This document shows, piece by piece, positions 27,608-34,691 of a DNA stretch of 64,000 nucleotides. Numbering within the stretch: position 1 is the stretch's first letter; every line of letters starts with the position of its first letter. The notes under the pieces are model-generated. The model was not told the origin of the DNA, ran no database searches, and worked only from the letters and a program-made list of their open reading frames with translations. Origin of the DNA: an uncultured Myxococcales bacterium (GTDB lineage: Bacteria > Myxococcota_A > UBA9042 > DTJE01); assembly GCA_903936705.1 (NCBI GenBank), contig CAIZWN010000075.1:1-64000 (forward strand), written 5' to 3'. The translations under genes and the position numbers were made by a program.

Positions 27608-29326
27608 GTGGTAGCCAATAACCTCCCCACTCGGAAGTCCCGATTCGACCTGCTGCCCTGGCTGATCGTCGCAGTGACCGCCACCCTCCCCTTCATTTCC
27701 TCGCTGGACACCCCGCTGCTGGGTGACGACATCATGGCGGTGGTCAACAGTCCGAACGTCCAGGGGAAGGTGGATATATCCCGCATATTCACGACCAATT
27801 CCTGGGGCAGCGTTGAATACTATCGTCACATTCCAAACTTTCGACCCCTGTCCGTCCTGACTCTTGCCGTCACCAGGGCACTTGCAGGGACCGACCCTCT
27901 GCCATACAAGACAACGAATTTGTTGTTGCATCTGGTGGCTACGCTTCTTTTGCTGCACCTTCTTGGACGCGTTGGAATCCCCCCCCCGGTTGCAACCCTT
28001 GCCACGATGGTCTTTGCGGTTCATCCCATTCATGCAGAAGCCCTGCTGTTCGCGGTAAATCGCGAAGAGATTCTGGCGGCCATATTTCTTCTTTTGATGC
28101 TTGGACTTGCGATAGATCGCAGCGGCTTGATACCGGCTGATCGGCGCAAACGCTGGACGCCAGCTTCCTTGGTGTTGCTTGGGCTGGTATTCGCGATGGC
28201 CGTTCTTTCGAAGGAATCCGGTGCCACCGGCCTGATCGTAGTGCCGCTGCTGCTGGTGACATGGCCTCGCGGGAAATCGCGGTTTCGGGCAGCCTTCATG
28301 CCACTTGCTGTCCTGATGGTAGTTTTCGTTGGCTACATAGGGCTGCGATTCATGGCACTGGGACACCTGACGGCCGGCTTCATTCCCTTCCAGGACAATC
28401 CTCTTGTCCTGGCCGACACGGGCCCCCGACTTGCAAGTGCCATGGCTCTGGTGGCCGAGGCCGCAACATTGCTTGTCGCACCACTCAACCTTTCAATCGA
28501 CTACAGTTGGAACGTCCTTGGCATGCCGATCGACGGTTTCCCAGCAAGGTCGATTGTGGGTTCCCTGCTGGTTCTTGCGACCATCGTCGCGTGCTTGCTA
28601 GCCGTCGGTCGCCGCCCGGTGGTTGCACTTGGGCTGGGCATACTGGTTGTGACTTACGGGCTCGTTTCGAACATTGTCTTTCTGAACTCGATGATCTTTG
28701 GCGAGCGCCTGCTTTACCTGCCATCGGTGGGAGCGACAGTGGCCCTTGCCGGGGGGCTCGAACTTGTGCAGGTTCGTGCCGGCACGACCCACCGCTTGTT
28801 CAGACTGGCCGTTGTGACCGTTCTGGCTGCCTGGGTGATGATGATGGGAACAAGATCGTTCCTGCGATCACAAGACTACCGAACGGCTACCGAACTGCTG
28901 AGGTCCTCCCTCGCGCAGCGTCCCGGCAGCACACGTTTGCTGGTCAACCTGGGCGTCGAGCTTACCGGTACCAACCGTCATGCCGAGGCCACTGCCCTGT
29001 TCAGTCAGGCGCTGGAAATCGACCCTCTGGATGCCGAGGCAAACCACAATCTCGGCGTGATGATGGCGGAACAAGGTCGGCCCGGCGAGGCGGCAGCGTT
29101 GTTCCAGCGGGCTATTCAGGCGCGGCCTGGTTTCCCGAAGGCACTTGGTGCAATGTGCCTGGTGCTTGAATCCACAGGAAGGGACGAGGCCGCTCTGGAA
29201 TGGTGCTTGAAGGCCGCGAAGCGCGGTGCCAAGGTCGAATGCGCCCTTCTGCGCCTGGACTCAAGCGGCCAGTGCAGGTCATCGGATCTTGGAGACTCAT
29301 CGGACGATGGCAAGGAGGCAAGATGA
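27608..29326 (+). CDS. TMTC-like membrane O-mannosyltransferase with TPR tail
   Basis: This 572-residue protein has about ten membrane helices followed by TPRs (about residues 430-540: LLVNLGVELTGTNRHAEATA, NHNLGVMMAEQGRPGEAAA). The first loop has acidic residues after helix 1 (LLGDDI) and NFRPLSVLTLA; the second helix region has NLLLHLVATLLLLHLL; HPIHAEALLFAVNREEILAA follows. This layout matches the GT-C fold TMTC family, which in animals transfers mannose from a lipid carrier to Ser/Thr. Bacterial members are usually of unknown substrate. The start is GTG with no ribosome site, possibly leaderless. The stop overlaps the next start (ATGA), so it is coupled to the Svf1-like gene. A paralogue lies at 50958. 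Confidence 0.75.
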   Translation: MVANNLPTRKSRFDLLPWLIVAVTATLPFISSLDTPLLGDDIMAVVNSPNVQGKVDISRIFTTNSWGSVEYYRHIPNFRPLSVLTLAVTRALAGTDPLPYKTTNLLLHLVATLLLLHLLGRVGIPPPVATLATMVFAVHPIHAEALLFAVNREEILAAIFLLLMLGLAIDRSGLIPADRRKRWTPASLVLLGLVFAMAVLSKESGATGLIVVPLLLVTWPRGKSRFRAAFMPLAVLMVVFVGYIGLRFMALGHLTAGFIPFQDNPLVLADTGPRLASAMALVAEAATLLVAPLNLSIDYSWNVLGMPIDGFPARSIVGSLLVLATIVACLLAVGRRPVVALGLGILVVTYGLVSNIVFLNSMIFGERLLYLPSVGATVALAGGLELVQVRAGTTHRLFRLAVVTVLAAWVMMMGTRSFLRSQDYRTATELLRSSLAQRPGSTRLLVNLGVELTGTNRHAEATALFSQALEIDPLDAEANHNLGVMMAEQGRPGEAAALFQRAIQARPGFPKALGAMCLVLESTGRDEAALEWCLKAAKRGAKVECALLRLDSSGQCRSSDLGDSSDDGKEAR

Positions 29327-30438
29327 ACGCAAGGCTGGTTTTCCGTTTCCTGGCCACGATCGTCCTTGTTGTCCCGTCGCAGGTTGCCGCTGATCCTTTG
29401 ACGTCCTTTCAGGGACCTCCGGTGCCCGTGACACTGGGCGACATCCAACCACACAACGCCGCGCCCGAGAACAGGGGCAACGAGTTCTACAGCGAATGGT
29501 GGTCGTTCGTGTTCAGGCTTGATGGCGGTTACAGCGCCTATGTGCAATTCCTGGTCTCGAACATGGGAGCCGGCGACGACAAGGCCGCGGTATCCTCCGA
29601 CTTCAAGCCACCAACCGGAGATCAAGTCAGGGACCGATCCGATTTTGAGGCCGGCAAATGGACCTCATCCAAGGACCAGTTCGAATTGCATTTTGGCCCC
29701 AACGTGCTGGGCGGCCCGATTGACGGCCTGACAATCCATGTCGAGAACGAGTCGTTCACAGCCGACTACAAACTGACCAACATCATCGCTCCCTGGAAGC
29801 CGGGAAATGGAAAGGTGCAATACGGAAAGTCGCCAGGCTCGTACTACCAGTTCCAGGCGATGGCGCCAGTGGCGCACGTCGAAGGAACCGTGACGCTTGC
29901 CGACGATGGCAGCGTTCACAAGGTCAAGGGGCTGGTCTACGCGGACCATTCGGTCGCCAGCATCGGCATGCACCAGCAAGCACGCAGGTGGGCACGGTTT
30001 CGCAGCCTTGGCGAAAAGACGACGTTTCTTCTGTCGGACATTCAAGCCCCTGATGCATACGGCCAGACCCCCATTCGATTCGTGGCGCTGTTCCAGGACG
30101 GCAAGGTCGCCTTCCAATCGACCGACTTCGAGATACGGGGATCCGATTCGTTGGCCGATAACAAGAAGGCCGGTTACGACGCACCACGCCTGCTTGAGTT
30201 CCGATCGAAGGACGGGGCCGCCGCTACCTTCAGGGGGGCAGTCAGAGGGACCAATCTGACGGCTCGGGAGGATTTTCTTGAGCAGTCGAATGCCGCCACA
30301 CGATTCGTTGTCAGCAAGTTCGCAAAGCCGATCATGTACTATTTCGACGGTTCGTTCGCGGCCGAAAGCATTTCACCCGTAGGAAAGATCGACGCTCGCG
30401 GAAAAGGAACCTACTACTTCACCGTCGTCAACCCCTGA
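29323..30438 (+). CDS. Secreted Svf1/AttH-like lipocalin-fold protein
   Basis: The ATG at 29323 follows AAGGAGG and overlaps the previous stop. The 371-residue product has a signal peptide (cleavage probably after VAA, residue 23). The N-half reads [30 protein letters not shown]; the middle has [14 protein letters not shown] then HVEGTVTL; then [20 protein letters not shown] and [20 protein letters not shown]. This order resembles the two lipocalin domains of the yeast survival factor Svf1 and the related AttH/CrtC group, which bind or modify lipids. The resemblance is from memory. Coupling to a lipid-linked sugar transferase suggests a lipid-related role, but that is inference. It is the last gene of the two-gene unit. 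Confidence 0.6.
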
Positions 30439-32176: not shown

Positions 32177-33028
32177 TCAATGGATCTGGAAGGATCGGAT
32201 GATGTCCAGTCGCCTATCGACGCTGATCAGCACGCCGGCGTATCCAACGACATTGCTGTCGTCACCGTTGACGTCGCCGCTGCACCCGTAGGCAGCAATT
32301 TCGGTCGATCGCCCACCCAGCGCACGGGCAGCAGAAAGCATCGCGACCGCAGGAACAAGACCGCACATGCTGACGTGGTGCTCGACGGCGGCAGCATAAA
32401 GCCCCCGAGGGTCCAGGGCGGTCAACCTTTCCAGAACCATCCTGTCCTTGCGGGCAGCAACCCGCCGTGGTTCATGGTGATTAAGGTCGCTGCTGGCCAC
32501 GATCAAGACAGGCTCGCCACAGTCTCGAACGATCTCGGCTACTACCGACCCGATCGACTCTGCAAGACTGCACGACATCGTTCGCAGACAGATTGCGGTC
32601 AAACGCAACGCAGGATTTCGCGACAACAGGAACGGCAACTGAACTTCTACACCGTGCTCTTCGGCGTGGGCCAGGTCGTCCAGCACAGCCTCGGGGCAGT
32701 TGTCGGCAATGCGCCTTGACATCTCTTCGTCCAGGGGAACATTGCCCATCGGGGTTACGAAAGGCCCATGCTTGGCAACCGCGACGCTTGCACCCAGGCC
32801 GGTATGGTTCGGGGAAAGTACAATCACCCGGTCTGGAACGATGGCGCGGGCATAGGTTGCGGCTGCGACTGCGCCCGAATAGGCCAATGCTGCGTGGGGC
32901 GACATCAGGCCGACGACCACCCGAGCCTTTACATCACTGAAGGCACCGTTCAGCAGGTCAAGTTCCGCCCGAAGTTCGATACCACAGTTCGGATAGAACC
33001 TTCCGGCGACGGCGGCACTCCTCGCCAT
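32177..33028 (-). CDS. MEMO1-family (AmmeMemoRadiSam system protein B-like) protein
   Basis: This 283-residue protein starts at an ATG with GGAGG 6 bp upstream, followed by the typical RSAAVAGRFYP. The set of putative metal or substrate residues is present: MSPHAALAYSG, ILSPNHTGLG, AEEHGVEVQLPFL, SSDLNHHEP and the Cys in HVSMCGLVPA. Members relate in fold to non-haem-iron dioxygenases; bacterial ones often sit beside an AMMECR1-domain protein and a radical SAM enzyme, neither of which is nearby here. The function is unknown. Longer in-frame extensions (to 33175) lack a ribosome site and run into non-coding sequence. Confidence 0.9.
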   Translation of the reverse strand: MARSAAVAGRFYPNCGIELRAELDLLNGAFSDVKARVVVGLMSPHAALAYSGAVAAATYARAIVPDRVIVLSPNHTGLGASVAVAKHGPFVTPMGNVPLDEEMSRRIADNCPEAVLDDLAHAEEHGVEVQLPFLLSRNPALRLTAICLRTMSCSLAESIGSVVAEIVRDCGEPVLIVASSDLNHHEPRRVAARKDRMVLERLTALDPRGLYAAAVEHHVSMCGLVPAVAMLSAARALGGRSTEIAAYGCSGDVNGDDSNVVGYAGVLISVDRRLDIIRSFQIH

Positions 33029-33140
33029 ACGTCCTCCAACCAGGATCGGACCGGACCAGCGGACCCTCCGCAAGACCTGTCCCGGCTTTTTGAAGGCCAG
33101 AAGATACCCGACCAACGCCCGCAATTCCAGAACAGTTGCG

Positions 33141-33290
33141 TCGTTTGCAAGCCTTGGGTGCGAAAAACAACGCAAACCATGATCGGCGGGCCAGTTTGAA
33201 GCGACTGTCCTCAGGCTTCGTAACTACTCGTTTGGTCAGCTGAAAGGGAGGGAGGCGAACCCCTTTGAATTCATGCCTACGGCAGATTTC
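33141..33290. repeat. Left copy of a diverged direct repeat (tRNA-Ser 3' region)
   Basis: This stretch aligns without gaps for its first 100 bp to 34388-34487 (offset 1,247 bp), including TCGTTTGC, GGCCAG and CGTAACTACT. It then continues, less perfectly, into the 3' half of the tRNA-Ser(CGA) gene. The pair brackets the lipoprotein gene at 33436-34350. Confidence 0.75.
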
Positions 33291-33328
33291 CGTCGCCGGG
33301 GCGTGCCAGAGACCGGACATCTACTTCC
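33240..33328 (-). pseudogene. Decayed tRNA-Ser copy
   Basis: Read on the minus strand, this has a tRNA-Ser-like D-arm start, an anticodon-arm remnant (GACGGAAATC, one base shorter than GACTCGAAATC of the intact gene), a long variable-arm remnant (CCGTAGGCAT, identical to the intact gene) and a T-arm (GGGGTTCGCCTCCC). The acceptor ends do not pair and the anticodon loop is short, so it should not function. I considered tRNA-Sec and rejected it (no TCA anticodon, no acceptor pairing). The rest of the gap 33029-33435 holds the repeat flank and the upstream region of the next gene. Confidence 0.65.
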
Positions 33329-33435
33329 GCTTATGACCCGGTCTTCCAGTCCGCTTGTTGCATCGTCCCACCTTCCTGGCGCCAGGGTTGGGGACGCGTG
33401 ATATCCTCCCCCGTCGCTTTCCCTAAGAGGAAACC

Positions 33436-34350
33436 ATGGCGTTGCTTGTATCGGGTGTTCGTCATTCCGGGTGGATGATTTCCGCCGTGGTCGTTTTCCT
33501 GGGCGGAATCGGCTGCCCGGCGAACAAGACCGGGTCGGCAACCGATATCCCGGGCACCGACGAGGGTACGGACGAGGGCGCGGACCAGGGCTCGGACGAG
33601 GGCTCGGACATCGCCAGCGCTGGCGCCTGCGTCGTCCTGTTCGGGCTGCCCAACGACCAGACGGGGCTCACGACCGACCAGTGCCGGCCGACCTGCGACT
33701 GCGAAGGAAAACGCTTCACCCCCCCGGTTTACACCGAGGAACAGATCCGGCGTATCGAGGCCCTAGTGCTGGTCGACCCGATGGCCACCCCCACCGAAGA
33801 TCCTTACGCGCACCCCGAACTTCACGTCCCGCAGCCTGGAACGGTGTGCGGACTCAGCCGGGAAATCGCGACACCAGATTCCTACCGGTTGCAAACCTTC
33901 GACAGCACAGCGGCGGCCCTTGCCGCAGGGGCCGTGGTTACCCACTTCGACGCCTGCGGACTCTGTTCGCCGCTGGTGAACCTGGCTGTCTATATGCGCC
34001 ACCCCGACTTGACGGCGCCGGTGCGCCAGTGCGGGATCAACGGGATGATCGCCGGCGAGGAGGAACACATGTCGTGCCTCATGGGCCTGGGCTTCGACGA
34101 GCCCTGCGCGCGCATCTGGTACTACAACACTCTGCATACCCAAGCGCAGTGCCAGGACATCTGCATGGAGTTGCTGGACAAGCCCTACAACGAGCCCGAC
34201 GGGACCCTGAACCAGTGCATGCTGTGCGACGAAGTTGAAAGCGGCGACGTGTTCAAGTCGGTGGCAGGCCGCAACCGCAGGAATACCGGCCTGCCGTCGT
34301 CCATGTGTCGTCCCTGCTCAGAAGTTCAGCCCGTCTACCACGTGTACTGA
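33436..34350 (+). CDS. Cys-rich lipoprotein resembling a microalgal protein family
   Basis: This 304-residue lipoprotein (lipobox GGIGC, Cys27) has AAGAGGAAACC before the ATG. An acidic repeat linker follows (DEGTDEGADQGSDEG, residues 41-57). The rest has 18 or so Cys, ordered as CGLCSPLVNLAVYMRHPDL, then RQCG, then CLMGLGFDEPCARIWYYNT, then CQDICM, then NQCMLCDE, and finally FKSVAGRNRRNTGLPSS. From memory, this series (CGxCS near Asp-Leu-x-Val-Tyr; CxxCDE; AGxNRRxxG) is found in secreted proteins of diatoms and green algae of unknown function. I know no bacterial function for it. It lies alone between tRNA-Ser repeats, which fits acquisition by transfer. Confidence 0.8.
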   Translation: MALLVSGVRHSGWMISAVVVFLGGIGCPANKTGSATDIPGTDEGTDEGADQGSDEGSDIASAGACVVLFGLPNDQTGLTTDQCRPTCDCEGKRFTPPVYTEEQIRRIEALVLVDPMATPTEDPYAHPELHVPQPGTVCGLSREIATPDSYRLQTFDSTAAALAAGAVVTHFDACGLCSPLVNLAVYMRHPDLTAPVRQCGINGMIAGEEEHMSCLMGLGFDEPCARIWYYNTLHTQAQCQDICMELLDKPYNEPDGTLNQCMLCDEVESGDVFKSVAGRNRRNTGLPSSMCRPCSEVQPVYHVY

Positions 34351-34387
34351 CACTTCTGCTGCCGTCCCTGATCGAGAAACTGCCGTA

Positions 34388-34537
34388 TCGTTTGCTACGT
34401 CCAGGGGTGCAAAACAAGGCAAATCATGCTCGTTCGGCCAGCCGGAATCGACTGCCCTGATGCCTCGTAACTACTTGTTTTATCAGCGGAGAGAGAGGGA
34501 GTCGAACCCCCGGTAAGCTATGCCTACGGCTGATTTC
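34388..34537. repeat. Right copy of the diverged direct repeat
   Basis: This is the counterpart of 33141-33290 and covers the 3' half of tRNA-Ser(CGA) plus about 100 bp downstream of it. Similarity is highest at CGTAACTACT and ATGCCTACGGC. Confidence 0.75.
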
Positions 34538-34572
34538 GAGTCAGCTGCCTTCGACCACTCGGCCATCTCTCC
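34487..34572 (-). tRNA. tRNA-Ser (anticodon CGA)
   Basis: The 86-nt gene has acceptor GGAGAGA paired with TCTCTCC, anticodon arm GCTGA-CTCGAAA-TCAGC (anticodon CGA, reads UCG), a long variable arm and T-loop TTCGACT. The discriminator base is G, as for Ser. The CCA end is not encoded. It lies 32 bp after tRNA-Ser(GGA) and is probably co-transcribed. Confidence 0.95.
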
Positions 34573-34604
34573 AGTACAAAAAGTGTCAATGAACAATCAA
34601 CCGG

Positions 34605-34691
34605 CGGAGAGAGGGGGATTCGAACCCCCGGTAACGTTGCCGCTACACACGATTTCCAGTCGTGCACCTTCGACCGCTCGGTCATCTCTCC
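34605..34691 (-). tRNA. tRNA-Ser (anticodon GGA)
   Basis: The 87-nt gene has acceptor GGAGAGA/TCTCTCC, anticodon arm CACGA-CTGGAAA-TCGTG (anticodon GGA, reads UCC and UCU), a long variable arm, T-loop TTCGAAT and discriminator G. CCA is not encoded. It lies 21 bp downstream of tadA on the same strand. Confidence 0.95.

Follow-up and report, generated by a model that had tools for sequence, protein, structure and literature searches.

The 64,000-nucleotide stretch analysed here (the window), from an uncultured Myxococcales bacterium, contains a gene for a 304-residue cysteine-rich lipoprotein. Its motifs raise two questions: what such a protein does, and whether its gene was acquired from a microalga. 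The original prediction had reported a lipobox, an acidic DEG linker and an ordered cysteine series (CGLCS, RQCG, CLMGLGFDEPC, CQDIC and CMLCDE, followed by AGRNRRNTG), and all of these elements are present, in this order, in the open reading frame (ORF), which is organized as follows.

33436–34350 (+): gene for the 304-residue Cys-rich lipoprotein; an ORF with homologs in 61 of 379 Myxococcota genomes and a pairwise omega of 0.11–0.26
33436–33516 (+): predicted signal peptide with a relaxed lipobox, FLGGIGC, and predicted lipidated Cys27 (from sequence)
33517–33618 (+): variable linker with an acidic DEG repeat (33549–33609)
33619–33840 (+): N-terminal Cys extension with Cys65, Cys83, Cys87 and Cys89 (from alignments, including one of 60 rows)
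33841–34347 (+): core domain with Cys138, 174, 177, 199, 214, 224, 239, 243, 261 and 264, all ten kept in the viral and divergent Bacteroidota forms

A hydrophobic stretch leads into the lipobox cysteine (VVVFLGGIGC, residues 18–27), as in lipoproteins, and the lipobox is not of the strictest form, since position −3 is a glycine. An automatic test for a lipobox and hydrophobicity is passed by 44 of 62 homologs, and several of the 18 that fail it have lipoboxes when inspected. The protein is probably lipid-anchored and surface-exposed. The DEG repeat consists of four copies with 12-nt spacing (direct-repeat analysis). Linker length and sequence differ among homologs, while the core stays fixed. 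Two Bacteroidota members (L156 and L157) have acidic repeats of their own in this region, MEMEME...PDPEPDPE and DTTDMTEEMD, and the acidic linkers of the Bacteroidota members are apparently a convergent tether. The N-terminal Cys extension is found in the lipoprotein forms and is missing from the short forms.

The core of the family spans ~240 residues and contains 16 cysteines (65, 83, 87, 89, 138, 174, 177, 199, 214, 224, 239, 243, 261, 264, 291 and 294). The motifs of the core domain are CGxCS, CxxCDE and AGRxRRxxG, together with CRPC and HxY; the window protein carries the ten core cysteines with CGxCS, CxxCDE and AGxxRR in the order typical of the family. In the 60-row alignment, at least 58 homologs agree at each of ~45 columns, and each of 16 Cys columns is retained by at least 53. 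With omega between 0.11 and 0.26 for pairs of related members, the family is under strong purifying selection. Given this selection, the near-invariant columns and the Cys columns, the observed motif series is far from chance.

The number of cysteines is even in 54 of the 60 members. Cys65 and Cys89 are lost jointly in three Myxococcota members, and Cys87 and Cys294 in two; one clade lacking Cys87 and Cys89 mostly retains Cys65 and Cys294, and a short Bacteroidota form lacks all six outer cysteines (65, 83, 87, 89, 291 and 294). The even count and the joint loss of cysteines that are distant from each other, near the N- and C-termini, are expected of structural disulfides. We infer from these patterns that the cysteines form disulfides and that the six outer ones sit together, fastening the additional N-terminal segment to the tail at the C-terminus, while the other ten would hold an older, helical core. 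The predicted pairs are 65–89 and 87–294. A set of polar residues, H170, S178, Y186, R197, T235, D265, E266, R281, R282 and R292, is kept from the bacterial members to the viral one described below.

This family of Cys-rich, putative surface lipoproteins is undescribed. Searches against Pfam, NCBIfam, PHROGs and PDB sequences gave no match above threshold, and literature searches for the motif or the family returned nothing relevant. A weak match to DUF2197 (PF09963) covering the CxxCDE region was rejected, as it scored 14 bits against a curated gathering cutoff of 22.2 and was seen in only one of 21 members. PDB sequence matches were dismissed as noise, and a match to a Pandoraea plasmid (E 0.4) was taken as chance, as it has no annotated same-strand gene and overlaps one on the opposite strand. 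The AlphaFold model of residues 62–304 (pLDDT 95.3, pTM 0.90) has a few short strands ahead of a helical bundle. Foldseek found no match to this model in the PDB (best E 0.63, TM 0.15) or in BFVD. The fold is thus confidently predicted and, as modeled, is without a counterpart among the solved structures or the viral models of these two databases.

Among bacteria, the family is found by profile search in 61 of 379 Myxococcota genomes (~16%; 60 by single-sequence search), nearly always as one intact copy, as in the window genome, and across at least 17 taxonomic families. As it is missing from ~84% of the sampled genomes, it is not a core family of the phylum. Broken or partial copies were also seen: L069 (in G045) is split into two frames, L119 (in G038) is a 47-residue remnant, and an N-terminal fragment lies at G093:C241:4682-4924. 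The GTDB contigs contain 20 loci, 19 in Myxococcota-type bins and one in Bacteroidota; several of the Myxococcota-type bins bear lake names, such as Erken. The family is present in 6 of 20 genomes of the Bacteroidota family to which the GTDB-contig member belongs; in another Bacteroidota order, 2 of 114 genomes encode a short form that is divergent and membrane-anchored. This short form (L056/L057, 330 residues; 32% identity) shares the ten core cysteines and the CDE/AGRTRR motifs with the window protein, and differs from it in having an N-terminal membrane segment and in lacking the six outer cysteines. Apart from alternative frames of the gene, the members show no conserved neighbourhood. 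Thus, with no conserved operon partner, no pathway can be read from the genomic context.

In the phylogenetic tree, the window protein clusters first with members of its own taxonomic family (98/94) and next with those of its class (97/97). Long-standing inheritance of the gene within Myxococcota is therefore probable. The Bacteroidota lipoprotein clade is nested among Myxococcota rows (98/95). Taxonomic labels are mixed across families, with 31 changes compared to a minimum of 17, so it is likely that the gene has moved between lineages of the phylum to some extent, or that old duplications were followed by losses.

The gene lies beside a pair of tRNA genes, and its position between tRNA-Ser repeats had been taken to fit transfer. 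The features of this slot are as follows.

33141–33290: left copy of a 150-bp direct repeat, containing a decayed 3′ part of tRNA-Ser(CGA) and ~100 bp of flank; 74% identity to the right copy, spacing 1247
34388–34537: right copy of the 150-bp direct repeat, extending into the intact tRNA-Ser(CGA) (direct-repeat analysis)
34486–34572 (−): tRNA-Ser (CGA) (ARAGORN)
34603–34691 (−): tRNA-Ser (GGA) (ARAGORN)

The repeat does bracket the gene, but the two intact tRNA-Ser genes are both on the right, and the left side holds only a degenerate partial copy. As with elements that target tRNA genes, the insert is flanked by a direct repeat that includes the tRNA 3′ end (150 bp, 74%). The lipoprotein gene stands alone between the repeats, and no integrase is present in the bracketed segment. 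Eight of the ten relatives with the tadA locus, all from other genera, have a Memo-family gene ~12–123 bp from the tRNA-Ser pair, a gap that leaves no room for an insert. All three genomes of the window's own genus carry one lipoprotein-like gene in this slot, different in each: besides the gene studied here, G191 has a 511-residue ORF with a carboxypeptidase-regulatory-like match, and G060 a 632-residue ORF. The G191 copy of the Cys-rich family is on a different contig from the slot. From the Memo-family gene to tRNA-Ser(CGA), the slot extends over 33028–34486 in the window, and over L133:4482-6065 and L134:3784-5887. A genus-specific insertion slot beside the tRNA would be the simplest reading of this arrangement. 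Within the family, tRNA adjacency and flanking repeats were seen in the window genome only. Elsewhere in the window, a gene at 29287–30435 has a weak, below-cutoff match to an Svf1-like lipocalin C-terminal domain, and several relatives have it close to this locus as well.

According to the original prediction, the series CxxCDE followed by AGxNRRxxG, which the window protein carries as CMLCDE...AGRNRRNTG, marks secreted proteins of diatoms and green algae with no known function. A DNA pattern encoding CxxCDExxxGxxFxxxAGxxRR matches nearly every family locus exactly once. It has a single match in all of IMG/VR (2.9 million viral contigs); two further matches of a looser pattern are chance (~10 bits or less), and scans of IMG/VR by single sequence or by profile, using back-translated peptides, gave no matches. 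The one viral member encodes 181 residues with an N-terminal membrane segment, at ~66.8–67.3 kb and near the end of contig IMGVR_UViG_3300020430_002235. With the bacterial profile it reaches 64.8 bits (E 8e-19); of 2000 shuffles with the cysteines kept in place, none exceeds 8.6 bits. Like the window protein, it has the ten core cysteines, CGxCS, WxxN, CxxCDE, GxxF, AGxxRR (as AGxNRR, in the literal form CAGLNRRR) and R292; W228, G270, F273 and G278 are retained as well, in addition to the conserved polar set. Unlike the window protein, to which it is ~30–35% identical, it has a transmembrane segment instead of a lipobox, lacks the N-terminal Cys extension and contains extra cysteines (CDExxCG, CAG). 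A model of the viral protein has a pLDDT of 63, too low for a structural comparison. The CxxCDE and AGxNRR-type motifs occur in the same order in the window protein, the viral homolog and, presumably, the algal proteins.

In the sampled parts of the viral contig, genes are dense and intronless, and they include thymidine kinase, YqaJ recombinase, a protein kinase, ankyrin repeats, an M16 peptidase, a BT1-family transporter and patatin. A search for the NCLDV capsid (PF04451) found none on the contig, and its control was equally silent. A gene of more than 2500 residues with EGF-like repeats adjoins the family homolog (L144:2-7669, −). The gene content of the contig is consistent with a protist-infecting giant virus.

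These results divide the proposed eukaryote link into two parts. The link itself is partly supported, because the motif series, including AG-x-NRR, is present in a significant homolog on a giant-virus-like contig; recent transfer from algae is the part without support. There is no sign of such an exchange, since the tree places the window protein with its own family and class, and the outcome that had been named as speaking against it, a broad bacterial distribution, is largely what we find (61 of 379 Myxococcota genomes and 6 of the 20 from a single Bacteroidota family). A recent gift from a microalga to the window bacterium is thus largely refuted and appears highly improbable: a homolog does exist in the eukaryotic sphere and the gene does occupy a lineage-specific slot by a tRNA gene, but the protein nests within its own Myxococcota relatives, the family is widespread in the phylum, and the viral homolog is only ~30–35% identical. 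We give about even chances to an ancient exchange between Myxococcota and eukaryotes, whichever way it went, with separate forms retained on the two sides thereafter and a giant virus taking its copy from a host. The split is deep with the same ten cysteines and motifs on both sides, the viral contig carries host-type genes (the BT1 transporter, protein kinase and M16 peptidase), and the presumed algal relatives would agree. Against this, the eukaryotic sphere is represented by a single sequence, and its position in the tree is unsure because of its very long branch. The family is probably old in Myxococcota, is shared with one Bacteroidota clade, and would have an ancient common origin with the eukaryotic-sphere version; the eukaryote link looks real but old. 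These two estimates concern origin and should not be weighed against those for function.

As to function, we tentatively favor, at less than even odds, a surface-displayed, disulfide-stabilized enzyme that acts on an extracellular anionic substrate. The lipid anchor and flexible acidic tether would display the disulfide-rich domain outside the cytoplasm, and the conserved polar residues may make up an active site or a ligand site, as opposed to a surface for adhesion. The conserved arginines suggest that the substrate is anionic (phosphorylated, sulfated or acidic), and it could belong to the surroundings, to prey or to neighbouring cells. The invariant polar set common to the bacterial members and the viral homolog argues for an enzyme; the same residues may instead be structural or constitute a binding site, and the patchy distribution in Myxococcota and the lack of a conserved operon partner also weigh against it. 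The main rival, which we regard as possible but rather unlikely, is a surface adhesin or receptor whose Cys-rich domain binds an algal, protist or bacterial ligand for attachment or predation, with no catalysis. An anchor with a tether would suit such a protein, as would the large, surface-type EGF-repeat gene next to the viral homolog. However, adhesins usually diversify, and this core keeps ~45 near-invariant columns at an omega of 0.11–0.26. The repeated CxxC/CxC pairs and the invariant CGxCS motif would also be compatible with a metal- or redox-active envelope protein, in which CxxC pairs bind metal or exchange thiols and disulfides. We consider this improbable, as the even cysteine number in 54 of 60 members and the joint loss of distant N- and C-terminal cysteines speak against it, and neither fold nor sequence searches of the PDB gave a thioredoxin-like match.

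If the favored enzyme reading is combined with the ancient exchange, the family would represent an extracellular enzyme domain of new fold, common to surface-living or predatory bacteria, microalgae or other protists, and the giant viruses of these, and exchanged anciently among them; this combination is doubtful at present. The family is a good target for structure determination, because it joins enzyme-like conservation and a fold without a solved counterpart with members of both bacterial and eukaryote-virus-like type. It also opens to testing the question of which extracellular domains are common to surface-living bacteria and protists or protist viruses, and which way these domains have moved.
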